Positions 2,897 to 62,014 of a stretch of 64,000 bases of DNA are shown here, piece after piece (the stretch's first letter is position 1; each line of letters begins with the position of its first letter). The stretch lies in NCBI GenBank assembly GCA_020975725.1, contig QXJR01000022.1, positions 124,001-188,000 of the forward strand. Reading direction: 5' to 3'. The translations under genes were made by a program, and so were the position numbers. The stretch comes from Picocystis sp. L7 (lineage: Eukaryota; Chlorophyta; Picocystophyceae; Picocystales; Picocystaceae). Under the pieces are notes generated by a model that made no database searches, was not told the DNA's origin, and worked only from the letters and a program-made list of their open reading frames with translations.

Positions 2897-3944
2897 CTTA
2901 ATTCGCTGGACTTAATTTTCAATGGTGCTTCTGACACTTTATTATTGATCAGTGGCGGACGGCATACTGTCCAGGCCGTGCACAGTCGATTCCTTGATGG
3001 AGAAAGGTGCACGCCAGGCTTGTTTAGAGTTGAACACTGCCGATGGCACCTGCAGCCAAGCTTGACTGTGGATTTGCCTCGAGAAGTGACAAGTATGCTC
3101 TGGATATTGATTTGCTTCGTTCGATCGTCATTCTGCATGCATTGACACAGGATATTTTTTCATTTTGTAACGCAACGGTGTTACTTCGCATACGAGCGAG
3201 ATACAGGCAGCGTCCCAGTTGTTCCGGACTTGGATAGATTTAGATCCATTTTGTCACATCTGCTGCATCGAGGATCACTAGAGCCATTGTGTTCTTTCCG
3301 AGCAAACAACTATTCAGTTTGACCGGTTTGGTAGTGGCGCTAGTCCTACACTTGAATCCATCTCCCCATGTTGATGTGTACTCCTTTCAAATATCCTCTC
3401 ACCAGGTATGCCCGTTTTGTTACCAAGTTTTGAACAAACAAAGTGGGGTGTCGTTTTCAAACACAGCTTTGAAAATCAGATTCAAGGGCCATCTACGCTG
3501 TCTTCCATTGTTGAGGCGATGAACCTACCCCAGAGATCTACCTCCTTATCATACATGCTTCCATCTGTGTTCATCTACACATGGGTGCATACATTGGTCA
3601 TCCCAGCCACCCTTGTGATGCGTCTGATCAGCCAGGTACACGTGATCCATGTCCTGCACCCCCACCCAACTTCCGTGCCTTCTTTTCCCCTTCTGTTTTG
3701 GACTATGTTGACCGGAAGAGGGACTTGGATGGGAACTCCAGGAGATACATTGGGATCGGCAGATGTGGCGTTGTGCTACTGCCAGTTTGGTGGTGGTATG
3801 GGCACCATGGTGGTGGCATTTCTGCCTAATTGCACGTTTCATGTAGGACACCTGTTGATTGCTGGGTGGAGACACCTGCATCCCTGATGGGCTTCATCCA
3901 TGGATCCTGTTGATTGCACATCTCCACCCTCGTCTGGGGATCCC

Positions 3945-4100
3945 CTGCCTTTCTCTCCTTTCCATCCGTTCCCTTTCTCCCCTTTCCATCCGTTCCCTTT
4001 CTCTCCTTTCCATCCGTTCCCTTTCTCTCCTTTCAATCCGTTCCCTTTCTCTCCTTTCCCATCCTTTCCATCCGTTCCCTTTCTCCCCTTTCAATCCGTC
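3945..4100 (+). repeat. Pyrimidine-rich tandem repeat (about 21-23 nt unit)
   Basis: At least six imperfect copies of a unit of the form CCTTTCCATCCGTTCCCTTTCT run head to tail, ending just before the CCCTTTCGAAAGGG palindrome. The array lies 110-265 bases upstream of the probable BRUTUS start. It produces a spurious open N-terminal extension rich in Pro, Phe and Ser. Confidence 0.7.
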
Positions 4101-4113
4101 CCTTTCGAAAGGG
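4100..4113. promoter_or_regulatory. Palindrome CCCTTTCGAAAGGG
   Basis: A perfect 14-bp palindrome 95 bases upstream of the chosen BRUTUS start. The identical 14-mer occurs at 35794-35807, 83 bases before the plastid HPF start codon. A role in transcription is inferred. Confidence 0.35.
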
Positions 4114-4208
4114 GGATGAAAGGGAAGGAGGGTCCACGAAGCAGGACGAAAGGAAGAACACTTTTTCACGTGGCATCGTCCAAAGCGCACGTCGTGCTGC
4201 GCTCGGCG

Positions 4209-7200
4209 ATGGCGATCCTGGCGCCGCTGGCGCTCTACAAACGCCTGCACGAGGCCGTGCGAGCGGAACTGGAAGACGTGACCGCGTGCGTGGTGCGCCT
4301 GGGAGAGCCTGCAGACGGACTGGAGCGCGTGCCGGACCTCTGCCAACGCCTGGCTTTTTTGCGTGCGCTGTATCGCTTCCATTCCGAAGCTGAAGAAGCC
4401 GTCATCTTTCCTGCGCTTGATGCGAAGGTCAGGAACGTGTCCAAGTCCTACCTCATGGATCATGGTGCAGAAACCGCGCTGTTCGACGCGCTCCTCGCCA
4501 GGCTGCGTGGCCTTCGAAAACTGGAACCGAAAGATGTGCAGAGGTTGGCCTGTGCGGCGGAAGGATTGCAAGCCACTGTGCGAGCCCATCTGGTCAAGGA
4601 AGAACAGCAGGTGTTCCCACTCCTGCTCAAGCACTTCAACGACCGAGAACAAGCCGAAATTGTCGCCAGGTTCCTCTGCAGCATCCCCCTCGCCACCGTT
4701 GAAAAAGTGCTTTCCTGGGTGGCCACGAGAGCCCCTAGAGAGGAGCAAAGAGGAGCGAGCTTTGGTGTGCAAAGAGCGGTGCAGGATCCGCTCCTTGGGG
4801 AATTGCTGGGAAGGTGGCTGGAACCCATGGCCACCCAATCCGACGACACTGACGTAGACATTTCACAAGAAAGATGCCAGACCCATCAAGCAAGCACGTC
4901 GACACCCCAAGGGTATGGGCAATTTGGGAATGGGGTGTCCAGGAATGGGTTCAAGAATGGAACATATGAGCAAAGGAGGCCTCCCATTCGTCAAATCATA
5001 CTAATGCACGATGCCATCCGTGCAGAATTCGAAAACTTTCACAAGGAGGTCAAGAACATCGCACAGGCATACACATCGGACAGAAACCTGCTGGTAGAAT
5101 CCGTGAAGAAACTTACAAGCTCTTTTCGCTTCTTGCAGTCTGTTTGCATGTTCCATTCCTCCGCAGAGGACGAAGTTGTCTTCCCGGCAGCAGATGCCGC
5201 AGCTATCAGGATCAACAACGCGATACTCTCGGAACATTCAGCGGAAGACAAACTATTTCATGTCATGGGGAAGTTGCTTCATCAAATGAAAGAGCTTTTG
5301 CTTACAACGGAAGAAATCTCTGTTTTCGGGCGCCTATGCGAAAAGCTCTTGAGCAGCATCGACAAAGTCAAGAAGTTAGTGAACTATCACATGGAGCGGG
5401 AAGAGAAGGAAATACTCCCTGAAATAGAGCAAAAGCTCACGCACCATGATCAATGTGTATTGGTATGGAAAACGTTGTTAGCAATGCCTTTGCAGCTACT
5501 AGAAAGGATCTTGCCATGGGTCGCGGCGGAGCTTACTGAAGAGGAGATGGAAGAAATGCTGAGGAACATGCGCCTCGCCGCGCCTAGCAACACCGAACCA
5601 GCTCTGCTGGAGTTGCTGTCAGCATGGCTGCAAAGGGGAAGAGAAGACCAGGTTAGCAATAGCAAAAAACGAACCGTTGCAGAGTTAGATTTGGAACAAG
5701 TTATGGGACATGCTGGTGTGGATATGTCAGGAGCCAAATTGAATGCTGGTACTCGACCTCACACGGTGAGAAGGTTGCATGCCCATGAATCCTCACCGTC
5801 TCTCTTTCTAAACGCAAGCTGTACTTTTGGGGAGGACTCCAAGTTTGTTGAGGCAGAGGGCTACAACCGGGAGGTCGAGATGTTGGCTGATGAACACCCT
5901 GCAGCGCAGCCTATCGACCATATCTTCAAGTTTCACAAAGCTTTGAAAATTGAACTGGAGATGCTAGAGAACATTGCTGGCAATGTTGTTGTGAATGGTG
6001 AGATTGCTGAAGACAACCTCAAGAACCTACATGGCAGGTTTTATTTCCTCACAGGTTTGTATGACGCACACTCTGAAGCTGAGGATGAGATTGTATTTCC
6101 GGCCCTTGAATCGAAAGAAGCTTTACACAATGTTTCTCATTCTTACAGCCTCGACCACAAGCAGGAAGCTATGCTTCTGAAAGAGTGCAAGACAGTACTG
6201 GAGGCTCTTTGCGACAAAGATTTGGTCCTGAAAGAGCGATTGGCAAAAGCGGCTACACTGCAGCGTATGTGTACGGGCATCCGCCATGCTCTGACTGTGC
6301 ATGTAGTGAAAGAGGAGCAAGAGCTTTGGCCCCTCTTTGCAGAGCATTTTTCCATGGAAGAGCAAGATGTGTTGGTGGGACAAATTATAGGTCGCACTGG
6401 TGCAGAGGTGCTTCAAGTCATGTTGCCATGGGTTACATCTGCATTGACACAGCAGGAGCAGGAGTCGATGCACGATAGCTTTCGCAATGCTGCTCGCAAC
6501 ACTATGTTTGACCAATGGCTTGCAACATGGTGGAAGAACAAGGACAGCTCGCAAAAGCTGGACGACAAATCGGAGAGCCCATCAGGTGAAATGGACCAAC
6601 AGGCCGTCCGGAGGCAAGCTGATGCCAATGCAGGTCTTCAAGCTGTCGCTAGTTACCTTCAAGAGTCCCAGTCGGACTCCAGGGGAACACTTCAGAGCTA
6701 TTCACAAGAGCGCAAGGCCGAGGCAATCCATTTCAAGCCTGGTTGGGAATCTCTTTTCAGAATGAACCAAAAGCAGCTGGAAGAAGCGGTAAGGAAAGTT
6801 TCAAGTGATGCCTCCCTTGACCCTCAGAGGAAGGCGTATTTGATGCAGAATCTAATGGCAAGCAGATGGATTGCGGCTCAGCAGCAAATCATTTCTGCTA
6901 CAGAAGGGAAGGGGACAGTTGATGCTGCACAGCCAGTGACCAAGAGTTTCTTCGACGTGAATAAAGGCATCATGGGTTGTAAGCACTATCAGAGACGGTG
7001 CAAGTTAGTTGCAGCATGCTGTGGTGCAGTGGTCGCGTGCAGATTTTGTCATGACGAGGTGAGCGATCACAATATGAACCGTCATGAAACACAGGAAATG
7101 ATCTGCATGGTGTGCGGGACAAGGCAGAAGGCAGACAAGTCCTGTTCCAACTGCAAGACAGAGATGGCAAGGTACTTCTGCAAATTCTGCAAGCTTTTTG

Positions 7201-7697
7201 ACGACGACCCAAGGCATGAGATTTATCACTGTCCATTTTGCAATCTTTGCAGACGTGGCAAGGGTCTGGGCATCGACGTGTTTCACTGCATGACTTGCAA
7301 TGCTTGCATGAGCTTGTCTATGAAAAAGCATGTATGCAGGGAGCATGGGTTGGAGAGCGAATGTCCAATCTGCAGCGATTTCTTGTTCACTTCTTCCATG
7401 CCAGTGAAGGAGCTACCATGTGGTCATTTCATGCATAGCAAGTGTTTCAAGACGTACTCGCGTTCCAGCTACACATGTCCCATATGTTCGAAATCTATGG
7501 GTGACATGTCCGTGTATTTCAAGATGCTTGACGCCATCCTTGCGGCAGAGCGGCACTACATCCCCCCCCAGTACAAGAACCAGAAGCAGTCCATCCTATG
7601 CAACGACTGTGGGACCCGTGGGGAGGTCCCGTTTCATTTTGTGTATCACAAGTGTGTGAATAGCGCATGCGGTTCTTACAACACTCGCATGGCTTGA
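4209..7697 (+). CDS. BTS: BRUTUS-like hemerythrin E3 ubiquitin ligase
   Basis: About 1162 residues in one exon, close to the roughly 1250 of Arabidopsis BRUTUS. Three hemerythrin domains lie at about 4209-4730, 4985-5560 and 5910-6450, each with the family's His and HxxxE iron ligands (for example RFHSEAEEAVIFP and HLVKEEQQVFP). They are followed by a CHY zinc finger (about 6960-7180), a CTCHY finger (to about 7340), a RING-H2 domain (7357-7490, CPIC...CGHFMH...CPIC) and a C-terminal zinc ribbon. In plants this protein binds iron through its hemerythrin domains and ubiquitinates bHLH IVc factors to limit iron uptake, acting in the nucleus. I chose the ATG at 4209 because the first hemerythrin helix starts right after it. 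The ATG at 4116 is possible. The frame stays open back to 3900 only through the tandem repeat. Its downstream neighbour is a bHLH of the substrate family. Confidence 0.93.
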   Translation: MAILAPLALYKRLHEAVRAELEDVTACVVRLGEPADGLERVPDLCQRLAFLRALYRFHSEAEEAVIFPALDAKVRNVSKSYLMDHGAETALFDALLARLRGLRKLEPKDVQRLACAAEGLQATVRAHLVKEEQQVFPLLLKHFNDREQAEIVARFLCSIPLATVEKVLSWVATRAPREEQRGASFGVQRAVQDPLLGELLGRWLEPMATQSDDTDVDISQERCQTHQASTSTPQGYGQFGNGVSRNGFKNGTYEQRRPPIRQIILMHDAIRAEFENFHKEVKNIAQAYTSDRNLLVESVKKLTSSFRFLQSVCMFHSSAEDEVVFPAADAAAIRINNAILSEHSAEDKLFHVMGKLLHQMKELLLTTEEISVFGRLCEKLLSSIDKVKKLVNYHMEREEKEILPEIEQKLTHHDQCVLVWKTLLAMPLQLLERILPWVAAELTEEEMEEMLRNMRLAAPSNTEPALLELLSAWLQRGREDQVSNSKKRTVAELDLEQVMGHAGVDMSGAKLNAGTRPHTVRRLHAHESSPSLFLNASCTFGEDSKFVEAEGYNREVEMLADEHPAAQPIDHIFKFHKALKIELEMLENIAGNVVVNGEIAEDNLKNLHGRFYFLTGLYDAHSEAEDEIVFPALESKEALHNVSHSYSLDHKQEAMLLKECKTVLEALCDKDLVLKERLAKAATLQRMCTGIRHALTVHVVKEEQELWPLFAEHFSMEEQDVLVGQIIGRTGAEVLQVMLPWVTSALTQQEQESMHDSFRNAARNTMFDQWLATWWKNKDSSQKLDDKSESPSGEMDQQAVRRQADANAGLQAVASYLQESQSDSRGTLQSYSQERKAEAIHFKPGWESLFRMNQKQLEEAVRKVSSDASLDPQRKAYLMQNLMASRWIAAQQQIISATEGKGTVDAAQPVTKSFFDVNKGIMGCKHYQRRCKLVAACCGAVVACRFCHDEVSDHNMNRHETQEMICMVCGTRQKADKSCSNCKTEMARYFCKFCKLFDDDPRHEIYHCPFCNLCRRGKGLGIDVFHCMTCNACMSLSMKKHVCREHGLESECPICSDFLFTSSMPVKELPCGHFMHSKCFKTYSRSSYTCPICSKSMGDMSVYFKMLDAILAAERHYIPPQYKNQKQSILCNDCGTRGEVPFHFVYHKCVNSACGSYNTRMA

Positions 7698-13952: not shown

Positions 13953-15000
13953 ACCGCGCGAATTCGCACGTCGATGCGAAATCGATCGTCCAAGTGAATG
14001 CGGGAAAACGTCGATGATGGGGGAAAGGATCCCCTTTTTCCCTGAAACTCGACGGTACCCACGGGAGGGAGGGGGTCGGATTCAGGATCCGCCGAGGAGG
14101 GAGGGGAAACCACGAGAGGAACGTCTCAGATCCTCCGGGAGAAGGGGGAGGGGGGGGGCGTTTCGCGACGTAGGCCCTAAACCCTAGGAGGGGACGGGTT
14201 GGGCCCGTGGACCCGAGGGGATTCCAATTTGTTGGTGGGTGTTGGCACACACGTCCTTCGATCCACACCAACACACGCGGTGGCAGGTGTGTGGAAGGAT
14301 CCACGCGTGCCCTTACTAGTGCCCGTTTCGATGCCTTGCCTTGTCTTCGACCATCGCCGCACGAGTCGGGACGGTCCATCGAGTGTGCCGATCGCGGTTC
14401 GAAAGAGCGATTCGTGGTGGACGAGATGGAACGACGCCGCATCCTCTTCCGGCGCATCCACCTTCGATGCATCCGTGTGCAAGGAAGGAAGCGCACGCGC
14501 TTCTTGTCCTTGTCATTCCGTCGGTCATCCGTGGGTGTGGTGGACAATGTAGGTCTTCTTCCTCTCGAATTGCCTCGATTCCATGCTCGTTCTCCCCGCG
14601 TTGGACATCGCAGATTTCTTGGCCAACGGGAGCGGATGCGCGTGAACCACGACATCTCCCCTGTACCGTCGATGGTTCCCTTTCCGATATAGCACCAAAT
14701 CCGCGGCGTCTCACGTGGACTTGTCAGGGTATGATCCCACTAATTCCGAAAGATGCCAGGTGGACGCATGGATGGGCCACGTCCACGAACCGTCGCCTTC
14801 CACCACCTGCTAGCGGAGAGCAGGAACGGGGCCAGTGACCTAGATCCACCGGGAAGGGAAAGGAGCGAGACGTGCGGCGCGGCGGCCTTGGTGAAACAGA
14901 GGTGATCCACGTGGTTGGGGGTGGGACAATGGCGTTCATTGGTGCAGAGGGGGTGGGGAAGGTGCCGGAGTGGTGGACACAGACATGGAGGGGGTGTGCA
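13953..15000. other. Intergenic region with a short telomere-like word
   Basis: GC-rich promoter-like sequence upstream of the LAZ1-like gene, then a mixed stretch without supported genes. CCCTAAACCCTA occurs once near 14172, too short to be an interstitial telomere. Confidence 0.5.
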
Positions 15001-16195
15001 GTGGGAGAGTGGAGAGTGGAGTGGGAGCGAGTGGTAGAACAGTGGTAGGACAGTGGCGTGGGAGAGAGTGGACAGTGGAGAGAGTGGACAGTGGCGTGGG
15101 AGAGAGTGGACAGTGGCGTGGGAGAGAGTGGACAGTGGAGAGAGTGGAGAGTGGAGTGGGAGCGAGTGGTAGAACAGTGGTAGGACAGTGGCGTGGGAGA
15201 GAGTGGACAGTGGAGAGAGTGGACAGTGGCGTGGGAGAGAGTGGACAGTGGAGAGAGTGGAGAGTGGAGTGGGAGCGAGTGGTAGAACAGTGGTAGGACA
15301 GTGGCGTGGGAGAGAGTGGACAGTGGAGAGAGTGGAGAGTGGAGTGGGAGCGAGTGGTAGAACAGTGGTAGGACAGTGGCGTGGGAGAGAGTGGACAGTG
15401 GAGAGAGTGGAGAGTGGAGTGGGAGCGAGTGGTAGAACAGTGGTAGGACAGTGGCGTGGGAGAGAGTGGACAGTGGAGAGAGTGGACAGTGGCGTGGGAG
15501 AGAGTGGACAGTGGAGAGAGTGGAGAGTGGAGTGGGAGCGAGTGGTAGAACAGTGGTAGGACAGTGGCGTGGGAGAGAGTGGACAGTGGAGAGAGTGGAG
15601 AGTGGAGTGGGAGCGAGTGGTAGAACAGTGGTAGGACAGTGGCGTGGGAGAGAGTGGACAGTGGAGAGAGTGGAGAGTGGAGTGGGAGCGAGTGGTAGAA
15701 CAGTGGTAGGACAGTGGCGTGGGAGAGAGTGGGCAGTGGAGAGAGTGGAGAGTGGAGTGGGAGCGAGTGGTAGAACAGTGGTAGGACAGTGGCGTGGGAG
15801 AGAGTGGACAGTGGAGAGAGTGGACAGTGGCGTGGGAGAGAGTGGACAGTGGAGAGAGTGGAGAGTGGAGTGGGAGCGAGTGGTAGAACAGTGGTAGGAC
15901 AGTGGCGTGGGAGAGAGTGGACAGTGGAGAGAGTGGACAGTGGCGTGGGAGAGAGTGGACAGTGGAGTGGGAGAGAGTGGTGTGGAGCGAGTGGTAGAAC
16001 AGTGGTAGGACAGTGGAGTGGGAGAGAGTGGTGTGGAGCGAGTGGACAGTGGCGTGGGAGAGAGTGGACAGTGGAGTGGGAGAGAGTGGTGTGGAGCGAG
16101 TGGACAGTGGCGTGGGAGAGAGTGGACAGTGGAGTGGGAGAGAGTGGTGTGGAGAGAGTGGTGTGGAGAGAGTGGTGTGGAGAGAGTGTTGTGTG
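15000..16195 (+). repeat. Higher-order minisatellite of GTGG/AGAG-rich units
   Basis: About 1.2 kb of purine-rich tandem DNA. A marker word, GAGTGGTAGAACAGTGGTAG, recurs at spacings of 75 bases (for example 15282, 15357, 15432) or 113 bases (15432 to 15545), that is 75 with an extra 38-base subunit. At the 3' end (15960-16195) the unit changes to a shorter form with GGTGTGGAGCGAG and GTGGTGTGGAGAGA. Copies are nearly identical. Both strands give spurious long open frames because the 75-base unit is a multiple of three. The array ends within 10 bases of the chosen start codon of the next gene. Confidence 0.95.
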
Positions 16196-27016: not shown

Positions 27017-29146
27017 TCATGGGTTCTTCCGTTGCGCTTTCTGAACCATGGCCACCTCCTTGTCCTTCTCATACCTGTAGTCGTAGAAGAGTTCTTCACC
27101 ATCCTTGATGCGCTCCTTCGCGAAAATGCCGACGCGGTGCTCACCTTCCACCAGAAGAACCTTGGCATAGCAGTTAGGATTGGGCGAATGGTTGGCAAAC
27201 CTAAATTTGTTTCCACGAAGAAAAGCATCTACCACAAACTCGCTGTTCAGATTGAACAAATAACTGCTGTTGACCAGGTCGTACACCTTGCCACGCCTGT
27301 CTGCTTCTTCGTGGCTGATCAGTTCTCCCGTGTACTCTCCCAGGAAGCTGTTTTTTTCTGCTTCTCCTTTGAGGAAGGCGCCCCATCCATGGATTTCGGA
27401 GATCCCCATCTGCACGTGCCTGTGGCGTCTCAGCAGCAAGTTCATGTTCTGGCAACACTGAGGCTGATCCGCGCCATGTGCCCTTGCGTTCTCCCCTGCG
27501 GGACCCTGTGCACCATGGGGCGGAATGCTTGGAATACAGTTGTGACAAAGGTCAGGGTCACACTCTCTTCCAGCTGCAAAGCACGGGCATGCCTTTGTTC
27601 GACACTGGCCTTTTTTGCATCGACACCCCGAAAAGCGATGCGGGCAGGTTGGAGGGCACTGGCAGAACTTCTCACAGAAATTTCCATTCTGAGCACAAGT
27701 GCAGGTTTCAAACACGCAGTTTCCACTACAGCTGCATGGGCTGTACGCAGGAAGGATAGACTTACCCGACTTTTCTATTTGCTTACGAACAGCCAGCGCC
27801 GCCGGTGTGATGGAGGACCTCGACCTCTTTTTCTTCCCGTTCCTTTTCTTTTGATTCTTTAGGGGCTCGAGATCTACTGGTGTAGGCTGCTTGGTGGGCT
27901 CTTGCACATGCTGATTGAGCCACTCTTTCACAGCTGCGCATCGGCGACCAGGTAAGAGCCTTGCGATGAGACATGCGTTAGGGCCAAACATCTTTTTCCC
28001 CATCATCATAATTCCTTCATCAAGTGTGCTCCATTTGTCGGCGAACACAGCCCCCCTGAGTCGAGATGCAGGTAATTCCTCCTTCCAGCAGTTGCGTTTG
28101 CAGGGCATCTGCTTGTTTTCATCATCCAATTTCATGCGTGGCCACAACCTTTCCGGCTTCGGAGGTGGGGCATATCCAAGACATTGCCTCTTGCAATCAA
28201 ACACCCTGCACCTTCTGCAAAACAGGGTTTGATGTGTATCAATGGCTTCTTCGAGGTTCTCTGTCTTAGCAAGAAGTGTTCGGCACTGAAGGCCTTGTAT
28301 GGTGTCGATCCCCTTTTCCAGGCACAGGATCCTCTTCTGGATCATTGTGGGCGTGGTTTCTGCATAGTCTGCCAATGCTTGGATGACTTCGGCATCTCTT
28401 GGGTCAAATACTTCCACAGTCGATCGTATGACATAATCATCGATGGGTTGCCAGTAGGGTTCAGGTTCGGAATCACTATCGTAGGGTGCATGGGACATAG
28501 TGCGAGGTCGTCTCTGATGGTGGTCGACCCTTTTCTTGGCATTGGTCGACTTGTGTCTTTCTTTAAACTTTTCAGGGTTTCCTTTGATTTGTTTTTCGAT
28601 CTTTTGCCTCACTTCTGAGCTGCAGAAATTATCTTGTGGTCCATCGTCATCAGATGGGTTGGTGGTGCTGGAAGGAGCATGTCGCCCATGTTCAGCGCTC
28701 CCTTCTGAATCGCTCGCATGCACAGTTTCACCGCCCACTTCATAGAGAAGCTTTCTGCCCACTTCAGAATCGTCTCTCACGTTTCTGGTGGCGTACCTCC
28801 AGGTGACGTATTTGGGTGGTGGCTGTGTGCATTCCAGTGGACGGGCCAGCATTTGCATGGTTCCACCACGGTTCTTCTTGACCACTACGTGTAGTTTTTC
28901 CTTCGCGGTCGTGCTGGTTGGTTCATTGTCGTTGGCCAATTCGTTCGTTTGGGATGTTTGGGGATGGTTTTGCATCACCAGTGGCGGCCTGGACTTGGCT
29001 TGGTTCCACGTGCGTTCCAAGGCAGGTTCCAGGACGTCGCGGTTCTGTTGCATCGTATTCCTCACGTGTTCTCGATGCACGTCCACGTACTTCTTCCTCG
29101 CGTTCCTCACGTGTTCCTGCAGCCGTTGTTTTTGGTCGGTCGACAT
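27017..29146 (-). CDS. E(z)-type histone H3K27 methyltransferase of Polycomb complex PRC2
   Basis: 709 residues from the ATG at 29146 (MSTDQKQRL); an in-frame ATG at 29203 would add 19 residues. The order is that of plant and animal E(z) proteins: a poorly conserved N-terminal half with a conserved Cys cluster (RTLLAKTENLEEAIDTHQTLFCRRC), a SANT-like segment (MFGPNACLIARLLPGR), a CXC domain with about 20 cysteines (about residues 470-540), and a C-terminal SET domain (about 577-696). SET motifs are intact: GWGAFL, FRFANHSPNPNC and EELFYDYRY. It is expected to trimethylate H3K27 together with ESC, Su(z)12 and p55, which are not in this window. No intron interrupts it. It is 3.3 kb from a DRM-type DNA methyltransferase on the same strand. 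Confidence 0.93.
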   Translation of the reverse strand: MSTDQKQRLQEHVRNARKKYVDVHREHVRNTMQQNRDVLEPALERTWNQAKSRPPLVMQNHPQTSQTNELANDNEPTSTTAKEKLHVVVKKNRGGTMQMLARPLECTQPPPKYVTWRYATRNVRDDSEVGRKLLYEVGGETVHASDSEGSAEHGRHAPSSTTNPSDDDGPQDNFCSSEVRQKIEKQIKGNPEKFKERHKSTNAKKRVDHHQRRPRTMSHAPYDSDSEPEPYWQPIDDYVIRSTVEVFDPRDAEVIQALADYAETTPTMIQKRILCLEKGIDTIQGLQCRTLLAKTENLEEAIDTHQTLFCRRCRVFDCKRQCLGYAPPPKPERLWPRMKLDDENKQMPCKRNCWKEELPASRLRGAVFADKWSTLDEGIMMMGKKMFGPNACLIARLLPGRRCAAVKEWLNQHVQEPTKQPTPVDLEPLKNQKKRNGKKKRSRSSITPAALAVRKQIEKSGKSILPAYSPCSCSGNCVFETCTCAQNGNFCEKFCQCPPTCPHRFSGCRCKKGQCRTKACPCFAAGRECDPDLCHNCIPSIPPHGAQGPAGENARAHGADQPQCCQNMNLLLRRHRHVQMGISEIHGWGAFLKGEAEKNSFLGEYTGELISHEEADRRGKVYDLVNSSYLFNLNSEFVVDAFLRGNKFRFANHSPNPNCYAKVLLVEGEHRVGIFAKERIKDGEELFYDYRYEKDKEVAMVQKAQRKNP

Positions 29147-31019
29147 CGCGCACTTCAGGAACGGCGCACCAACCACGCGCACACCACAGGATCCACTGTT
29201 CACACCACGTCAACACCACAACCCACACAAAGTTGTACACCCCCCAACACAACCACACACGTGCATACAAGGATGCACCAACACAAGCACCTACACCAAC
29301 CCACCCTTCTCCTCGGGCGACTTTCAAGTCTTTCTACTTGGACGGGTGGAATTGGACATCCTCACATTGGCTCCTCGTTCCTCTCGAACGGCGAGGATGG
29401 TGGCTACGACGAACGTGCAAACGAGGGATGGCGATGGCAGAAAACATTGTAGCATGGGTGAACGTCCGAATCCAAACCCAACATGGTGATTCCACCAAGA
29501 CGGTGGCTTCAGAAGCCATAACAGAGCCTTCACAGGGCGGTGAACAAGATGCGCTTCACAAGGATTGGTCACTGCAATGCAAACACGGCCGAACATCAAT
29601 CTACGAAGACTCCCCACGCTCGCCCAAAGATCGCTGACACGTGAGTGCATCGAAAAGCGTACCGCATATGTTTCGGGAAGTATTCCGCTCCATTGTACGT
29701 GATGTGAACGGCAAGGTTGTGCATGGGTTCCTTAATCATTGGTTCGACAACTTCCTTTCGCGTTGGAAAAGGTACCAAACGACCGCCCAATTTCATGTGT
29801 TATACGCTTGCTCTTGACAACGGGCTCCGCCAGTCATCACCAAGCGTGCGCCGGTTTTCGAGGACGACATTGTCCGCGCCGTCTAAGCGCAATGTGAATG
29901 GTACTTGACCCAAACAAATCGTGACAACCTTGTATCATTGATCTTGTCCTCCTTTTCAAACACAACCGATTCGCGCAGTCAAGGAACACGTACCGTTCGT
30001 CTATTACCCAAGACAAGTTTAGATGTGGGCACCGTTGATCCCCAATCTCGTTTACACCCAAACCTTTGGACCCTCGAGGGCATATCGTATTGTGTACTTC
30101 AGCAAGGTGTGTTCACGAAATTTAAAGGAGAAAGGGGAGGCCGGAGGTGGTGTGCCATAAGAGGGAGCCGTAGTGCACTATGGAAATTTCATCGCTGTAG
30201 ATCCCTTCCAACGATGGGGCGGGGAAGCGCGCTTAGTTTGGTGTTTGAAGAAAGTGGAGTGATGTGACGGAGCGGTTGGTTTACGTGTCTTTCGATTGCA
30301 TGTTTTTTTCTTGCTTTTGGCATCTACTGGGATTGTTATTCAAAATCTCCGAGAATGACGCACATGCATGATTGCACCTTTGAGCATGCCATTAGCTTGT
30401 GTTCGAGCAACGGTCACACACGACCGCTCCACACTCACCCGAGAGCGGAAACATCGTCACGGATGGTGCAACGATCCCTCTTGTTCTTGCCGTTCTCGTG
30501 TTAATGGTTATTGGCCACGTCATTGTTTTCGTGTTCTCGTGTTTTCGTGTTCTCCCCATGGTCGTGGACACCGTTGCGATTGCCTTGGTTCCGTTTGCCG
30601 TGGTCGTATCGGCGATGCTGCTCACGGGGATGGAATCAGACGGGTTGGGATGGAACGGGTTGCTGTCCGAATAGTGCTTGTCCTTGTTTTTGGGCGAGCG
30701 AGAATGGTGTTCAAAGCCAAACGTTCACTTCCTCGTGTTGCACTTCCAAGTCTACGGCAGGTAGGGTCCGAGTTTGATCGTGTGTGTTCCAACGGCTTTG
30801 AACTCTTCACTCTTCCGTCCAGTCTCGCAGTTTTGCGATTTCGGCACAGCGGCGAGCATCCACGCTTCCCTATGTCTCTCGCGTCGGACACTCCACTGGA
30901 CTACATCCGTGCGATGCATTGCTACCTCTTCGTGCATTTCATGTGACTCCACATCTCGCTGGGGATGGATCCCCTCCTCGACTTGTCGTGGTTTTTTAAA
31001 AACAGTTGATCCTCAATGG
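29147..31019. other. Intergenic region, partly AT-rich
   Basis: 29150-29650 is the promoter side of E(z), with CA-rich stretches. 29650-30400 is AT-rich. 30400-30950 has a CGTGTTTTCGTGTTCT-like simple repeat and overlapping spurious frames. No gene is supported. Confidence 0.5.
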
Positions 31020-32432: not shown

Positions 32433-34839
32433 TCAGCCAGTCCCACCATGCCTGCCTCTCCTCTCGTGCTCCTCCTTGCACTTGCGCAAGATGGTGACGT
32501 AACTGAAAAACAGGTGTGAATCATCTCCGGAAAAACCGGACCTGCCGCTCCCCTTGTCGCTGGATACCCGGTTCAACATGCTGATGTTCTGGCATGGACT
32601 TCCGCCGATCACCAAATGGATGGGGCCTTTGTTCATGATGTTGCGAATGAAAGCGGTGCTGCTTGGGCCCTTGGATGCGTCCCTGATGTCTACCATTTCT
32701 ATGTGAATGGCACGAGGTGCGTGCTTCTGCATCCAATTCCTCACCACCATCCTCCTTAGCTCGTCCTTCTCGCAGGTGATCACACGATTCAACCTCACGC
32801 CGATCTTGTGCAAGGCAACTAATGCCCCTCCGATGCCATCAAACAGAGACAATACCGTGATGCCCTCTGGAGGTAGCTTCCCTGCCTTCTGCAAGTCCAG
32901 AAACGGCGTCAGCAAGTAGGCGACCGTGTCCACCTGGAACGAGTCTCCCAGCATCTTCCTCCTCTGATGGTCAGTGGTGTGGTATTGGTCGCAGCTTCCA
33001 GTGTGACCCCTCGAGAATCCCATCAGCTCTTCGACCCTCTCCACGGAAAGCACATCGGGCGTGGTTCCTGTTCGGCTAGGCACCAAGTTGTACACGCGTA
33101 TCTTTTTGAGGACGTCCTTCTCCGATGGCTTGTGCAACCGAGTCCCAGGATTGGCTTTGATGTACTGCTTGATCTGAGTGACTGATCGTGGACTCGCACA
33201 GGACAGCCCTACGATTGCCCTCAGACAATTGTCAAACCATGCAGTCGATGCCCACGCCGGCCACGGTCTGTCGGATGGCCAGCCCAAGAACTCCTGGACG
33301 GGCTTGACGGAGACACAAGAGGCATAGGAGGTGATGGGCTTGTGTCCTCGTAGGTTCGTGCAGTAGCATCTTGACCTGGAGGCCGTGGAGAACAGCCCCC
33401 CTGAATTGATGGCTAATAAGGGCTCGTCCCACAAGTTGCTGTGAATGGTGCAGGCAATGTCTAGGTGTGAAAGCAAAAAATCGTTAGCACGGAACTCTTC
33501 AGGAAGTAACGCACTCGAATGGACGCTACCACTGTCTGATCGCTGCATGCTCACCGGTGAACTTCCTTGAAGGCATGAAAACTTGCTCATACAAAAACTT
33601 TGGCCATTCGAACGATGGCTTCTGAAACCGCTTCGATGACATTAGCTGCGCCGGGTCTGTAAACGTCGGACAGCTCATCCTCACCTCAGGGTTCCTGCAC
33701 CAGCTCTCATACGGAGCTAAAAAAATCCTCAGTTGCTCTGCTGTTCTTGTTGGACTGCTTCTGTCTACAGGCCAGCTCATCTTTGGTGCCCTGACTTTCC
33801 TGCGCAAGGACAAGAAGTCACCGTCCTCGTCTGAGGAGGTGAGAAGGTCGATGGTCTCCCAGAAATCTGGAGCACTGGAGCGCGGTGGTTCTATTGGTTG
33901 TCCTGCTTGCCTAAAATCTGTCAAAACATTCTGGATTCTTTTCGGTTTCACGCAAGGCTTTTCTGGCCTGCATTTGTCCAGCAACCTTGCCACATCGAGG
34001 GATTCTTCGTCTGCTCGCGGCCTCTTTTGCAAAGGAGGGACTTCTACAGCAGGAAGGATCGTTGTTTCAGGAGGACTCCCTAGTTCATCTGGTGCGCTCA
34101 GGACGGTGTCAACCGCAGGCTGCTCGGCGCAGATTTCGTTGATGTTTGCAAACTTGGGTTCTCGCTTCTTGGTGTTCTCGATTTCTTGCAGGACTGGTTC
34201 CCTGGGCTCCTGGTTTGACCTCTCCGACTCTGGCATGGTTTGTGCCTCTAGGAGGTTCCAGTTGTTCCTGCCCGGTTCTTGGATCGACAATGACCAGTCC
34301 TCCATGCACAGGTGTGGATTTTCGTGCTTCGCGAGTCTTTTTCGGTGACGACAGAATGGACATCGCCAGAACAACCGCAGCGCCCCGTTTTTTTCTCTAT
34401 GATCACTCCCCCAGAAGAGATCTAGGCATGTTTCGCAGATTCCCGTGGCACAGAAATGATCCCTGGCGAAGGGTTTTCTCCTGCACATCTGATGATTGCA
34501 TTTTTCCACCAGGCAATGTTGAAGTAGTTTTTCTCTTCCACAGCACCTGCACTTCGTGTCTGCATATCCTGGGTAGTCTTTCCTTGGTTTCATCTCCCAC
34601 CGGATCTCTGCGATCTTCTGGCGACACGTCGCGCACAGTTTCAATTGAAAGTGCGGATGGTCGTGTTCTGGTTCGCCGTGTACGTGTTGGGTCCACACCC
34701 GTTGGAAGGCACATTCGTTCCTCGGGATCTTTCTCCGTGCTTCTTGTCCCACCTTGGTTTTGTTGGCTTCCCTTCTTCTTTCTCCCATCCCTTGGTCATC
34801 GAACCATTCCCTTTCGTGCTCCACCTTTGCCTTGGCCAT
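32433..34839 (-). CDS. DRM-type (permuted) DNA cytosine methyltransferase with N-terminal zinc domain
   Basis: Exons 34839-33555 and 33460-32433 give 770 residues. The C-terminal about 350 residues are a DRM catalytic domain in the circularly permuted order of plant DRM2: VEELMGFSRGHTGS (motif IX region), LGDSFQVDTVAYLL (X), VLSLFDGIGGALVALHKIGV (I), CEKDE (II), and IGGSPCQNI with the catalytic Cys (IV), then HLFFSYVTIL. The UBA domains of plant DRMs are absent. Instead residues about 67-160 hold a Cys-rich zinc domain: CATCRQK, CRCCGREKLL, C-x3-CRR, HFCATGICETCLDLFWG and WRCPFCRHR. It resembles the CDCA7-type zf-4CXXC_R1 and, less, the ADD finger of DNMT3. A disordered linker separates the two. 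The expected role is de novo cytosine methylation and gene/transposon silencing. The start at 34839 excludes an upstream GGGAAA repeat. Confidence 0.88.
33461..33554 (-). other. Intron of the DRM-type methyltransferase gene (94 nt)
   Basis: On the minus strand: donor ACCG/GTGAGC, branch GTGCTAACG, polypyrimidine tract TTTTTTGCTTTC, acceptor CACCTAG. Phase 1. It links two frames that are each open on their own side and creates KFTD/IACT, which aligns with plant DRM. Confidence 0.85.
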
Positions 34840-34889: not shown

Positions 34890-34965
34890 CTTCGAGGGAA
34901 AGGGAAAGGGAAAGGGAAAGGGAAAGGGAAAGGAAAGGGAAAGGAAAGGGAAAGGGAAAGGACCC
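34890..34965 (+). repeat. GGGAAA hexanucleotide microsatellite
   Basis: About a dozen copies of GGGAAA with some AAAGG interruptions, 50-125 bases upstream of the DRM start codon; pyrimidine-rich on the sense strand of that gene. Confidence 0.85.
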
Positions 34966-35890: not shown

Positions 35891-36942
35891 ATGTTGCGCG
35901 CCGCAACCACGCATGCGTTCCAGGTGAGATGCGCGAAAAAGACGTGGAAAGGTCAAGGGAAGAAAGGGAACGACGCCGTCCTGGCGTGGACGGAGATCGG
36001 ACGCCCAGATGCGACGCCTGCGAAGAGGTGGTTGACGTGATCGGACTCCACTGACGTCGGAAACGCACACGTGCTTCCGTGCCGCTTCAGGGATCGGTTT
36101 CCTGCCGCAACGGATCCGCTGCTTCCACGAGAACCGCGCCGAAAACCAAGGTCGTCAGAAAAGGGTGGGGAACCACCACCCTCGTCGCGGAACGTGAAAG
36201 AAACCATGGACAACACCACCTGGGGAATGGTGGTGGGAACAAGACGAAGCAACTGTCCTTCGTCCCTCAAGCCACCAGAAGCGTGTGCCACGGGCTCACC
36301 ACTGCACGCATGGAGATCCACGGAAAGCATCTGGATCTCACCGATGCCATGAAAGACTACATCACCCAAAAAGTAGAACACGCCGTCGAAAAGTACGAAA
36401 GCTTCGTCAAGAAAGTGGATGTCAAGGTTTCCGTCCACGGTGGCGATGCGGGCAAAGGAGCCAAACAGCAGAAGACGGAAGTCACCATCTTCATGAAAAA
36501 GGGAGTGGTGAGGGCCGAGGCAAAGGAAGAAAGCCTGTATGCAAGCGTGGACCTCGTGGCGGATAAGGTCTCCCGGAGGCTCAGAAAGGTCAAAGAAAAA
36601 ACAGGAATCAAGGCAGGAAAGCACAGAGGATCCGCCGTGGTCACCGACATGGTGGATGCAGAAATGGTCGAGGACAACGAGGTCCCCATCTACGGAGAGG
36701 CCCAGCTTCCGAAGGAAGTGGTGAGAACCAAGTACTTCTTCCTAGAAGCGCTCGATGTGGACGAGGCTCTAGAACAAATCAAGAATATCGATCACAGCTT
36801 CTTCGTGTTTCGAGACAAGAAGACCAAAGAGGTACAGGTGCTGTACAAGAGGAACCACGGTGGCTACGGTCTGATCATCCCCATGGATAGTAATGCCCAA
36901 GTGGATGAAGAGGAAGCAGAGCTGTATTCGCAGCCACTGTAA
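35891..36942 (+). CDS. PSRP1: Plastid ribosome hibernation factor, long HPF type
   Basis: Exons 35891-35923 and 36091-36942 give 294 residues. The first exon supplies MLRAATTHAFQ. With the next about 70 Ser/Arg/Gln-rich residues it forms a typical chloroplast transit peptide. The N-terminal HPF/RaiA domain begins at MEIHGKHLDLTDAMKDYITQKVEHAVEKY-like sequence and the long-HPF C-terminal dimerisation domain ends the protein (KYFFLEALDVDEALEQI...FFVFRDKKTKEVQVLYKRNHGGYGLI). In plastids and cyanobacteria this protein binds the 30S decoding region and inactivates or dimerises ribosomes in the dark or under stress. Without the first exon the frame would start only at GTG. The 167-nt intron has GTGAGA, CACTGACG and CTTCAG signals. 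Confidence 0.93.
35924..36090 (+). other. Intron of the plastid HPF gene
   Basis: Donor TTCCAG/GTGAGA, branch CCACTGACG, acceptor CGCTTCAG/GGATCG. Phase 0, inside the transit peptide. Confidence 0.8.
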
Positions 36943-37146: not shown

Positions 37147-38109
37147 TTAGATACCAGTGTACTCTGAACAAAACAATGCAAGATAGGCTGCAGCAACTAG
37201 CTGAAGGCACCTTTCGTCGGCATAAACGAGGGGTTCCCCATCGACCTGCTCCAACTCTGCCATTGACATGCGATCGAGGCAAATGAGCCGCTCTGAAAAC
37301 GCGGGAAGAAGGTACCTGTTGCGATCCCTTGCATCTTCGTAGATCCACTGGATGAAGTGGACAAAGTCGCTGTACCCCATCCCTTCCTTTCCTTTTCGAT
37401 AGGCCGCTTGTCTTCTCCAATCTTCCCAGGTGAGCATTTTCATTCCCTTACTATCGTCCTCGCAGGCTTGTGTAAAGTTGTCGTTCACAAAGTTTTCCAA
37501 ATCTTCCCGAAATGATGAACTTGCCACGAATCTGAGTTTACACCACTGAAGGAGACAGTTTCCTGTGCTCAACTGCCGTCGAAGCTCCTGCTCCACCTCG
37601 ATATTTGCTTCTTCCAACATGTGAAAGGGGAGATTCACTACCTCGAGCTCCATTTCCCATCGCCTGTTCAAATCCATTGTCGCTGAATACGTCGCTTGGT
37701 CAAGCCTGCCCGCGATCGTGTTTTTTTCCTGTATGGCCAGCGTGTCCACCACCAACCTGGTGCACAGGGCTTCTTCGTGGTCCAGTTCATCCATCGAGTC
37801 CGGTGTACCCTCCTTCTTCTCTTTCGTGTGCGCAATGTCTGCAGTGCGGTACTTCTGGACTTGCCTGTCCTTTATTGTGGAGATGATGTCGGTGTCTGGC
37901 TTTCCTGCCACATCGAGGAGGGTGGCACAGAGCTTGTTCCATTGCCTTGCGGCCAATGCTTGTCGCACGACCTTGGCCATCCTCTTGTTCCTTGCTTTTG
38001 CGTTCGTGATCTGCATCCCACCACGGAAAGTCTTCACCAATTGTTGCTTCCATTCTTGTCGGCCCATCTGTGCCTTGTTGTCCAGCCTGGCCAATGGATC
38101 GTGTCCCAT
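37147..38109 (-). CDS. Hypothetical protein
   Basis: 320 residues from the ATG at 38109 (MGHDPLARLDNK); an in-frame ATG at 38145 is possible. The protein is highly helical and charged throughout, with Trp-rich amphipathic segments (QEWKQQLVKTFRGG, MLTWEDWRRQAAYRKG, FVHFIQWIYEDARDRNRYLLPAF) and a hydrophobic C-terminus (LQLVAAAYLALFC). No transmembrane span, signal peptide or known domain is visible. Codon use and length argue for a real gene, and no antisense frame competes. It is convergent with the plastid HPF gene, with about 200 bases between stops. I cannot name a family. Confidence 0.7.
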   Translation of the reverse strand: MGHDPLARLDNKAQMGRQEWKQQLVKTFRGGMQITNAKARNKRMAKVVRQALAARQWNKLCATLLDVAGKPDTDIISTIKDRQVQKYRTADIAHTKEKKEGTPDSMDELDHEEALCTRLVVDTLAIQEKNTIAGRLDQATYSATMDLNRRWEMELEVVNLPFHMLEEANIEVEQELRRQLSTGNCLLQWCKLRFVASSSFREDLENFVNDNFTQACEDDSKGMKMLTWEDWRRQAAYRKGKEGMGYSDFVHFIQWIYEDARDRNRYLLPAFSERLICLDRMSMAELEQVDGEPLVYADERCLQLVAAAYLALFCSEYTGI

Positions 38110-38149
38110 GGTCTCGATCCTCCCCTCGCTTCCCTTCCAGGGCACCTGG

Positions 38150-59103: not shown

Positions 59104-60326
59104 CGTAATGCACAATTACGAAGGTGGCAACCCACGAACGTATCCAAAGTCAACACCCTGCTTCTTACATGGTATCGGAGCCCGTTTGGAGCAGAAGAAA
59201 ACAGAAAACAATTGAACTAAACAGAGAACAAGGAAAACAACAAAAAAAAAGGATAAAAACAAAATGGAAGGAGTGAATTTCGAAAAACCGAACTCCGAAA
59301 ACTTCCCGATATGGAAACATCGGATGAAAGCTTTGCTGGTCACCAAGGGAGTTGGAGAAGCCATCTTAAACAAAGACAGTGAACACTCTGAAAAGGCATT
59401 GGCCCTCATGTGCTTGTGTGTGAGCAATGAGTATGTGGATTTGGTGGCAAACTCCGAATCTGCGCAGCATGCGTGGACGATGCTCGAGGACATGCACGCG
59501 GGTCAAACCGCGGCCCGTCGTCTCACCCTACGCAAGGAGTTAACAGGACTTACCAAGAAACCGGAGGAAAGCATGATGAGCTATATCATGCGTGGAAAGC
59601 AGATTTGTACCGACCTGCGCGCGATCGGTGGGTCGGTGACCGACATCCATCTGATCGATGCGATCCTATCTGGCTTGCCGGAGGAATATGCGAACAAAGT
59701 CGAGATGCTCACCACCTTGGGGGAGACAGACATGCTCAAAATTCAGAATCAGTTGCTCATGGCTGAATTTGCCATAGCTGTACGCGAGACATCTAGAGGT
59801 CAAGTTGCTTTTGCTGCGCGGAGCCGACGCCCGAAGATCACTTGCAACTATTGTGGTAGAATTGGACATGGCCGCGAAAAATGCTGGTATTTGAACGGAT
59901 TGCCACCACACCTGCAGAGAAAATCCACAAATGATGCTAATGATGAGGAAAAGGTGGCATTGGTGTCCTATGCGCTGGAATGTGGAAATGCCAGTAGCTT
60001 GGGAGACATCTGGATCGTGGACAGCGGCGCGACGGCTCATGTTTGTGCACAACGAGAAGCGTTCACATCTGTCACACAGGAAGTTACACCACAATCTATC
60101 CTGGTTGGAAATGGAGAAGTTGTCCTGGCAAAGGAAACAGGAACCGTTGCTCTGGGTGGAAATGTGGAATTGCGAAATGTGCTTTATTGCCCAGAGCTGA
60201 AGGTGAACTTGATCTCGGTCCCTAAGCTGATGGAAAGAGGATGCAATGTTTACTTTGAGAACGGTGAATGTGCTGTTTGGAGAGGAAAGCAAAAAATTCT
60301 CAGTGCTATGCAGAAAAATGGACTTT
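59104..60326 (+). mobile_element. Ty1/copia element fragment 1: partial 5' LTR, gag and start of pol
   Basis: The 3' end of a family B LTR (59104-59169) is followed directly by the primer binding site TGGTATCGGAGC, as expected for an initiator-Met tRNA primer. The gag frame starts at 59264 and includes a CCHC zinc knuckle (CNYCGRIGHGREKC). A protease motif (IVDSGATAHVC) follows. The fragment is cut off at 60326 by an inverted LTR, so most of pol is missing. It is very similar to fragment 62015-64000 and therefore young. It is a truncated fossil. Confidence 0.88.
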
Positions 60327-60619
60327 TGTAAGAAGCAGGATGTTGAATTTGGATACGTTCGTGGGTTGCCACCTTCGTAGTTGTGTTACGTGCAAGAATG
60401 AGTGGTGAGTATCCCCACTCAATGGCGGCTTCATCGACCGCAGAGGACCTCTCAGTAACCGGGATCAGTCCTTGTCGGTATCGTTCACTGCAGGAATGGG
60501 CATCGCCCTTCGAGGACCCACAGGGGGCCTGATACTCCTCGAAGGTACTCGACCGATACTCGGTCGTGGTCCCTAAGGGATTCGACCTCCTAGGGACAAG
60601 GGCTTGAGCAGCCTCAACA
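60327..60619 (-). mobile_element. Family B LTR, inverted (3' LTR of a minus-strand element)
   Basis: 293 bp from TGTAAGAAGC to CCTCAACA. On the minus strand it starts with TGTTGAGG directly after the RNase H coding region to its right, as a 3' LTR should. Confidence 0.85.
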
Positions 60620-61145
60620 CTCTCCGCTGCTCATGGCCTGGTACTCCAACAAGCCCAATGTCTTCAATGCAGCTTGCAACTTGGTGGGCCCCAGGGCCTT
60701 GGTCAGGAAATCTACCAGCTGATCATTTGTGCTGATGTACTGGAATTTCAGCTCTCCCCGACTCACGCGGTTCCGCACAAAATGATGTGCGATATCGACG
60801 TGTTTCGTACGGGACACGGTCAGCGCGTTCTTCGTCAAATTCACAGCACCGTGATTGTCACAATAAGTGGTGATACATTGGGCCCCAAATCCAATATCAT
60901 TCAACACCTTTCTCAGGCACAACGCTTCTTTTGCTGCAGAAGCAGCAGCCATATACTCGGCCTCCGTCGTGGACACGGCAACTGTTTTCTGCAATTTTGT
61001 CTGCCAGGAAACCAAACTGCCATGCAAAGTGAACACGTAGCCAGTTGTGCTACGTCTGGTTTCTTTACAGCCTCCGTAATTGGTGTTGAAATACTCATGC
61101 CCTAGCTCATCTGAGATCGAAAACTTATGAATGATGGGCTGATTA
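60620..61145 (-). mobile_element. Fossil Ty1/copia RNase H fragment, minus strand
   Basis: Encodes the C-terminal RNase H part of a copia polyprotein (TTGYVFTLHGSLVSWQTKLQ, STTEAEYMAAASAAKEALCL, CDNHGAVNLTKNAL, KHVDIAHHFVRNRV). Its 5' part is missing, cut off where a family A LTR begins. Together with 60327-60619 it is the 3' end of an element oriented opposite to its neighbours. Confidence 0.88.
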
Positions 61146-61157
61146 ACTTCTGGGAAC

Positions 61158-61376
61158 CCTTCGAGGTATGAGGGAGTCACTGGACTCCTCGAAGGTACAT
61201 GCCCTCATATTACAGTGTCATCACCGATGAGGAATCCGGAGAAGATTCTCTGTATTCCTCTGAGTGTTATGGAAACCCTAGCACGGAGTGATATCCACCC
61301 TCCGTTTTGATTGTTGGAATAGAAGTACGTACGTGGAAACCTACGAACGTCTCTCACACGAACGAGCGCTTCTTAC
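61158..61376 (+). mobile_element. Family A LTR, 5'-truncated
   Basis: About 219 bp of the family A LTR, ending CTTCTTACA and followed at 61377 by the primer binding site TGGTATCGGAGC. About the first 77 bases of the LTR are missing. Confidence 0.8.
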
Positions 61377-61719
61377 ATGGTATCGGAGCGCGTTTGAGGC
61401 GCAAGGAACACACAGCAACCGAAAAAAAAAAAAAAATGGAAAACGGAAACATCATCGAAAAGTTGAACGACGACAACTTTCACGTTTGGAAGCACCGAAT
61501 GAAAGCTTTGCTCGTCACAAAAGGACTCGACAGTGCCCTTGAAAAGACAGATGATTCACACTCTGCCCAAGCACTTGCTCAAATGTGCTTATGCGTAAGC
61601 GCCGATTATGTCAACCTGATAGCGAGTGCTGAATCTGCATTTGAAGCTTGGCGGGCATTGGAAGCTATAAATGCTGGGCAAACAGCTGCTAGGCGTTTGA
61701 AACTGCGCAAAGACCTTAC
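61377..61719 (+). mobile_element. Family A Ty1/copia gag fragment
   Basis: After the primer binding site a gag frame starts at 61436 (MENGNIIEKLNDDNFHVWKH). It is clearly related to, but distinct from, the family B gag. It runs 95 codons and is interrupted at 61720 by a complete family B LTR. Truncated fossil. Confidence 0.85.
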
Positions 61720-62014
61720 TGTTGAGGCTGCTCAAGCCCTGGTCCCTGGGAGGTCGAATCCCTTAGGGACCACGACCGAGTTTCGGTCGAGTACCTTCGA
61801 GGAGTATGGGGCCCCTGTGGGTCCTCGAAGGGCGATGCCCATTCCTGCAGTGTTCGATACCGACGAGGAGGGATCCCGGTTTACTCAGAGGTCCTCTGCG
61901 GTCGATGAAGCCGCCATTGAGTGGGGATACTCACCACTCATTCTTGCATGTAATACACAACTACGAAGGTGGCAACCCACGAACGTATCCAACGTCAACG
62001 CCCTGCTTTTTACA
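61720..62014 (+). mobile_element. Family B 5' LTR of the element at the right edge
   Basis: 295 bp, TGTTGAGG to TTTTTACA, followed immediately by TGGTATCGGAGC. It sits inside the family A gag fragment. Confidence 0.9.

Follow-up and report, generated by a model that had tools for sequence, protein, structure and literature searches.

The animal de novo methyltransferases DNMT3A and DNMT3B are arranged PWWP-ADD-methyltransferase, the ADD domain being a GATA-like finger packed against a PHD-like finger. Plant DRM1 and DRM2 and tobacco DRM (NtDRM) have UBA domains and a permuted cytosine-5 methyltransferase domain, in which motifs VI–X precede motifs I–V. Plant DNMT3 has an unpermuted catalytic domain and a C-terminal DUF3444 (PMC6453930). 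In the zf-4CXXC_R1 proteins, to which CDCA7 belongs, the zinc domain is combined with JmjC, DDT/WHIM1 or chromo domains, and a DNMT fusion was not met in the accessible text (PMC10538959). Here we describe a gene of the green alga Picocystis sp. L7 that runs from 34839 to 32433 on the minus strand of a 64,000-nt stretch of contig QXJR01000022.1 (positions 124,001 to 188,000 in assembly GCA_020975725.1; hereafter the window, whose first letter is position 1). It encodes one predicted protein that has a permuted catalytic domain, keeps the key catalytic residues and carries ADD-like sequence on both the GATA and the PHD side. We consider it rather probable that the gene product is a DRM-type de novo cytosine-5 methyltransferase in which a diverged ADD domain, instead of UBA domains, serves as the targeting module.

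The Picocystis protein shares the permuted domain with the plant DRMs. Unlike them, it has an ADD-like zinc domain instead of a detectable UBA domain, several short insertions in the catalytic domain (including a 6-residue one that follows motif IV), and the substitutions PCQ for PCN in motif IV and EQV for ENV in motif VI. It resembles DNMT3A and DNMT3B in having an ADD-like domain ahead of a catalytic domain of the DNMT3 family, but differs from them in the permutation, in a linker of about 240 residues and in that no PWWP domain was listed by Pfam; compared with their ADD, the first zinc pair is missing, the PHD half contains an insert, and D531 is replaced by Pro. Like plant DNMT3 (PMC6453930), it would belong to a green-lineage family of de novo methyltransferases, but it is permuted, and DUF3444 was not listed by Pfam here. 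The Cys-rich zinc domain, the CxxCRQK start and the WxCPxCR end recall CDCA7 and the other zf-4CXXC_R1 proteins, whereas their Cys spacing and CNCS tail are absent and the profile match is near shuffle level (PMC10538959).

The joined exons (Table 1) form a coding sequence of 2313 nt and 770 residues, with a single, terminal stop codon and without frameshift or premature stop in the 770 codons after splicing. When the predicted 94-nt intron was read through, the frame met a stop at codon 438, and removal of the intron restored the DRM reading frame. As the Cys-rich part and motif VI sit in the same exon, the fusion is independent of the intron call. The fusion of the Cys-rich domain with the DRM catalytic domain is real, and two separate genes were ruled out, because the Cys-rich domain, the linker and motif VI form one open exon. 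The frame remains open upstream of the predicted start as far as 35499, so the N-terminus may be longer than predicted. Upstream of the predicted start ATG, at a distance of 56 bases, begins an AGGGAA-type hexamer repeat (34895–34961, 11.5 copies). Codon-usage correlation with seven neighbouring genes was 0.60 for exon 1 and 0.63 for its +1 frame, and 0.63 for exon 2 and 0.69 for an antisense frame; codon usage was thus uninformative, because the true frame could not be told apart from others by it.

In a phmmer search of the PDB, the exon 2 frame matched tobacco DRM (4onq, E 6.8e-38) and Arabidopsis DRM2 (AtDRM2; 7l4h, E 8.3e-29) along the greater part of both proteins and with the same motif order, motif X coming before motif I. 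When the end of exon 1 was added, the match reached motif VI and improved to E 3.2e-39 for NtDRM (about 5 bits more) and 2.5e-29 for AtDRM2. The protein is colinear with 4onq and 7l4c, motifs VI–X being followed by motifs I–V: motif VI (YEQV, residue 417), a VIII-like motif (452), motif X (GDSFQVDTVAYLL, 600), motif I (LSLFDGIGG, 632) and motif IV (GGSPCQN, 714). Pairwise alignment with NtDRM gave 40% identity, and the catalytic Cys (GGSPCQN), the motif VI Glu (YEQV), the S-adenosylmethionine (SAM) motif (LFDGIGG) and motif X are kept. Motifs I–V alone, the part comparable to unpermuted enzymes, scored 83.2 bits with NtDRM versus 40.9 bits with the best DNMT3A chain. A DNMT3 proper was rejected, since the catalytic domain is permuted and does not follow the canonical I-to-X motif order. 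Pfam gave only a partial DNA_methylase match in the catalytic part (E 4.3e-7), as expected for a permuted domain, and NCBIfam gave dcm on the exon 2 frame (1.4e-7) and no more than a chance-level match on exon 1 (E 0.13). We therefore assign the catalytic half, with high confidence on sequence grounds, to the permuted DRM-type cytosine-5 methyltransferases. No UBA family appeared in the Pfam scan at E up to 10, with the limits that HMMER filters may overlook weak UBA domains and that the protein may extend further at its N-terminus. An initial annotation, made from the nucleotide sequence of the window without database searches, had given the same coordinates, 94-nt intron and motifs, had read the catalytic order as permuted and had remarked on the missing UBA domains; all of this agrees with the present results, the permuted order through the colinearity with the NtDRM and AtDRM2 structures, and the intron is plausible.

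The Cys-rich part stands out by composition, residues 43–178 containing 15 Cys in 136 residues versus 15 in the other 634; a 136-residue window of equal density occurred in 6 of 5000 whole-protein shuffles (windows taken every 4 residues). ADD was chosen for testing because it is a known partner of DNMT3. A profile was built from the ADD domains of DNMT3A, DNMT3B and ATRX, together with a DNMT3-only profile and separate profiles of the two halves (addN and addC), and scores were compared with those of shuffled sequences in which Cys (C-fixed) or Cys, His and Trp (C/H/W-fixed) were held in place. The ADD profile scored 26.9 bits on residues 38–185, a value reached by none of 2000 C/H/W-fixed shuffles (best 22.8); its best single segment scored 18.8 bits, reached by one of 2000 shuffles. 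The DNMT3-only profile scored 20.7 bits (0 of 2000 shuffles), and hhalign aligned the ADD with a probability of 53% (E 1.4e-4, 31% identity over 87 columns). To offset the selection of ADD as the candidate, the profile was also run over 2332 reading frames from the window and from the loci found in the search for relatives (203,301 residues), where the gene was the sole significant hit and ranked first with 21.6 bits (E 2.3e-5), the next frame having 8.7 bits (E 0.23).

Taken separately, addN scored 15.5 bits on residues 38–96, a value that none of the C-fixed shuffles (4991 of 5000 scored) and three of the C/H/W-fixed ones (4998 of 5000 scored) attained, and addC, covering the PHD side, scored 15.3 bits, reached by 3 of 5000 C-fixed and 74 of 5000 C/H/W-fixed shuffles. 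The GATA side is the more specific part of the ADD likeness; in alignment, HPHFQLKLCATCRQ in the Picocystis protein stands against HPLFEGGLCQTCRD in DNMT3B. The CATCRQK start is matched about as well by the DNMT3B ADD (HPLFEGGLCQTCR), and the ADD-like stretch on the N-terminal side accounts for the motif that had pointed to CDCA7. On the PHD side all eight ligands can be matched (C97, C100, C109, C114, C135, C138, C160 and C163), and the 20-residue insert carries H116, C119, H128 and C130, which may form an extra zinc site. Two of the four GATA-side ligands, C69 and C72, were matched. For the lost pair, C43 and H52 are possible substitutes by position: H52 matches the second lost Cys in spacing, and nine residues N-terminal to H52 stands C43.

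Several observations weigh against an ADD domain. The main weakness is that the assignment, drawn from sequence likeness, depends on one diverged sequence without relatives. The composition-bias term was large, at 12.2 bits for residues 38–185 and 11.2 bits in the scan of reading frames. Neither half profile was significant on the 2332 frames, the N half ranking second with E 0.61 and the gene being absent from the six best matches of the C half, and the case for ADD therefore needs both halves together. Against the PDB, the ADD profile also raised the PHD fingers of CHD4 (27.1 bits over two stretches, 24.0 over one) and designed TIM barrels (up to 41.8 bits); because of these matches and the 74 of 5000 shuffles, the PHD half alone would be unspecific for ADD. 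The first C-x2-C of ADD is absent from the GATA side. HMMER and hhalign placed the PHD-side insert differently, which makes the middle ligand pair of the PHD-like half uncertain. Two single-sequence AlphaFold models, made without an alignment, reached a mean predicted local distance difference test (pLDDT) score of 42.8 and 46.3. Foldseek on the second of these low-scoring models gave 243 matches at E up to 10 and none at E ≤ 0.001; the best (E 0.22) were RNA polymerase subunits and not ADD. In DNMT3A, D529 and D531 are described as binding histone H3 unmethylated at lysine 4 (H3K4me0; PMC13109025). In both the HMMER and hhalign alignments D88 aligns with D529 and P90 with D531, so that one of the two aspartates is lost; strict H3K4me0 reading is uncertain because of this replacement by Pro.

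A search for relatives with exon 2 found 0 loci in viral contigs, and a search with the DRM alignment found 2 loci in viral contigs and 13 in genome contigs. From a partial reading of three loci, L001 and L009 encode methyltransferases of canonical motif order, and L002 contains a fragment of such an enzyme, all uninformative for the zinc domain; the reading frames of the remaining 12 loci were used as background in the 2332-frame scan. The canonical-order 5-methylcytosine (m5C) methyltransferase of L001, a viral contig, is encoded at 4986–5948, and its motif X, GNGFQVDTVAHIL, is very similar to that of the DRM, GDSFQVDTVAYLL. L009 contains, at 4995–6788, a bacterial open reading frame (ORF) of 597 codons that, by eye, encodes two tandem m5C methyltransferase domains.

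The alternative that survives best treats the Cys-rich part as an unrelated zinc domain of the cross-brace kind, either RING-like or a finger peculiar to the lineage, with a chance likeness to ADD; it would serve as an E3 ligase, protein-interaction or DNA-binding module on a DRM enzyme. We regard this as unlikely, yet as deserving real weight, and the library scans that speak for it also count against ADD. No family passed its curated Pfam cutoff in the Cys-rich part. For whole exon 1, the RING family RING_XB3/XBAT31 alone was listed (E 0.31) and ADD_DNMT3 was not. On pieces of 131, 91 and 47 residues, cut by hand with the sequence already known, RING_XB3/XBAT31 was the best match at E 0.026, 0.011 and 0.0024, ahead of ADD_DNMT3, whose place as one of two weak matches of the 131-residue piece (E 0.2, 12.1 bits versus a cutoff of 26) speaks in turn for ADD. 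PF25080, another RING-like family, matched the 47-residue piece at E 0.024, along with Zn_ribbon_LapB (0.024), Nairovirus_NSm (0.1) and zf-Sec23_Sec24 (0.67). When exon 1 or the 131-residue piece was used as a single-sequence phmmer query against the PDB, which includes ADD structures, each returned one unrelated chain within an E limit of 10, and no ADD chain appeared. C114-x-H116-x2-C119 also recalls the RING C-x-H-x2-C core, and the extra Cys and His of the insert would suit such a domain. However, the RING_XB3 match remained below the Pfam cutoff (18.3 versus 50 bits) and, in exon 1 and the 131-residue piece, was limited to residues 130–166. The HPxF...CxxC side, which scored with ADD above all C-fixed shuffles, falls outside it, and the RING spacing is broken after C119, the next Cys being C130.

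Much less probable is that the Cys-rich part is a zf-4CXXC_R1 domain of the CDCA7 type, which would read hemimethylated or nucleosomal DNA and aim the DRM enzyme. The initial annotation had left the zinc domain open between CDCA7-like and ADD-like, and had seen a resemblance to zf-4CXXC_R1 in the CRQK start and WxCPxCR. The CATCRQK start and ICETCL..G...WRCPFCR do resemble CDCA7, enzyme fusions of zf-4CXXC_R1 with JmjC exist (PMC10538959), and Pfam zf-4CXXC_R1 reached E 0.015 on the hand-cut 47-residue piece. That match is below the cutoff, however (15.9 versus 22.7 bits), and the CDCA7 profile scored 0.6 bits, equalled or exceeded by 153 of 2000 shuffles (168 of 2000 for its best segment); hhalign gave 6.8% over 28 columns, and in the 2332 frames the gene was not among the six best matches. 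These profiles are narrow, being built from three close vertebrate-type sequences for HMMER and two for hhalign, and a divergent plant class may escape them. CDCA7 has an 11-Cys spacing of CXXCX10CX4CX7CXXCX19CXXCX3CXCXXC (PMC10538959), and comparison of Cys positions showed that this spacing is absent from the Cys-rich part. The comparison that the initial annotation had proposed, PF10497 versus ADD, thus found similarity to ADD. ADD is favoured over CDCA7 as the probable identity of the zinc domain: the ADD half of the original proposal was strengthened by the profile, hhalign and the frame scan, although below curated cutoffs, and the CDCA7 half was not borne out.

Likewise improbable is a paralogue that is in decay or catalytically inactive, as DRM3 is said to be, and whose zinc domain has a scaffold role; EQV for ENV and PCQ for PCN would fit this, but the 770 spliced codons are free of stops and frameshifts, identity to NtDRM is 40%, and the catalytic Cys, the Glu of motif VI, the SAM motif and motif X are kept.

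In a DRM-type enzyme with a diverged ADD, the DRM domain would be the writer and the ADD-like domain a histone reader and possibly a gate, separated by the linker of about 240 residues. If it works as in DNMT3A, the ADD would bind the histone H3 tail and might shield the catalytic domain as long as the enzyme is away from chromatin. The state of chromatin would then direct methylation, in place of or in addition to recruitment linked to UBA domains and small interfering RNAs (siRNAs). Instead of reading H3K4me0, the domain may recognise a different state of H3 or have a regulatory function alone. Zinc binding, histone binding, autoinhibition and activity in the cell are what we infer for this protein, and the self-contained de novo system envisaged in the initial annotation, with a reader of histones or hemimethylated DNA, stays hypothetical. 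Between the ADD-like and catalytic parts, linker residues 329–341 (33817..33855, minus strand) read TIDLLTSSDEDGD, which resembles a SUMO-interacting motif.

Table 1. Coordinates of the gene, its predicted domains and motifs, and other ORFs of the window
Feature	Position	Strand	Details
Exon 1	33555..34839	-	428 codons + 1 nt, no stop; residues 1–428 and first base of D429; contains ADD-like domain, linker and catalytic motif VI
Predicted GT-AG intron	33461..33554	-	94 nt; GTGAGC...TTTTTTGCTTTCACACCTAG; pyrimidine tract, then CACACCTAG
Exon 2	32433..33460	-	Residues 429–770; remaining permuted DRM catalytic domain and stop
ADD-like zinc domain (putative)	34342..34713	-	Residues 43–166; ADD profile, hhalign, ORF scan
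GATA-like half	34624..34713	-	Residues 43–72, HPHFQLKLCATC; H-P and second C-x2-C kept
PHD-like half	34351..34551	-	Residues 97–163; C97xxC100, C109x4C114, C135xxC138, WxC160xxC163
Insert in PHD-like half	34438..34497	-	Residues 115–134 (20 residues); borders inferred
Motif VI, PKFLYEQV	33580..33603	-	Aligned to tobacco DRM PFFYYENV; ENV to EQV, Glu kept
Motif X, GDSFQVDTVAYLL	32910..32948	-	Precedes motif I (permutation)
Motif I, VLSLFDGIGG	32826..32855	-	SAM site
Motif IV, VIGGSPCQN	32586..32612	-	Catalytic Cys
S30AE-type ORF	36079-36942		Pfam
ORF without family	37147-38145		Pfam
Hemerythrin-CHY-RING ORF	3900-7697	+	1265 codons; three hemerythrin stretches, CHY zinc finger, RING
Copia gag and Pol domains	62128-63264		Pfam; Copia-type ORFs span 59264-64000

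Ten ORFs of the window were scanned with Pfam. At 27017–29203 on the minus strand, a single open frame of 728 codons encodes an E(z)-like SET protein that also has a CXC domain. It lies 3.2 kb downstream of the DRM gene, in the same orientation, so that writers of two silencing marks are neighbours here. The ORF with hemerythrin, CHY and RING domains is one that we take to be a BTS-like iron sensor E3 ligase. The other scanned ORFs were of bHLH, GATA, amine-oxidase-like, fatty-acid hydroxylase, UVB-sensitive family and Copia gag type; the ORF at 59264–60331 is, by eye, closely similar to the Copia ORF and suggests a second copy. Taken together, this assortment of families points to a photosynthetic eukaryote. 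A tandem repeat array of 1.1 kb lies at 15052–16161; its repeat units include lengths of 75, 188 and 263 bases, and GC skew is strong here, at 0.446 over 14001–16000. Neither Rfam nor a tRNA scan gave a hit in the window. Retrotransposon DNMT3s are described for charophytes and dinoflagellates (PMC5890265). A retrotransposon-borne methyltransferase found no support here, as the neighbours are the E(z)-like SET gene, the S30AE-type ORF and the ORF without family, and Copia domains occurred only at 62128–63264 among the ten ORFs, shorter ones nearby lying outside the scan.

In the parts of the literature accessible to us, ADD is described as an animal DNMT3 domain, and one such paper limits DRM to streptophytes. 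DNMT3 of unicellular holozoans is described as being without PWWP and ADD, both acquired in animals (Amoebidium paper, PMC11244446). No description of an ADD and DRM pairing was found in the literature covered, outside which lie most subscription papers and all preprints; the initial annotation, too, had known of no such architecture. Novelty is tempered by a review, citing other work, in which a Cyanidioschyzon DNMT3-like protein is called vertebrate-like in organisation (PMC9861306).

A tentative and rather unlikely scenario is that the ancestral DNMT3/DRM enzyme already had an ADD, which was kept here on a permuted DRM, exchanged for UBA in streptophytes and lost from the DNMT3s of unicellular lineages; the lesser version would be an independent capture of ADD by a DRM. 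If the ancestral scenario is true, histone state would be coupled to de novo methylation without recruitment by UBA domains and siRNAs. If confirmed, the pairing of ADD with DRM would question the view that ADD joined this enzyme family only in animals, and an ADD on a permuted DRM would represent either a second independent pairing of reader and enzyme or evidence of an ancient one. Either origin would make the origin and targeting of DRM testable, by asking whether a DRM without UBA domains follows the state of histone H3 and not small RNAs.

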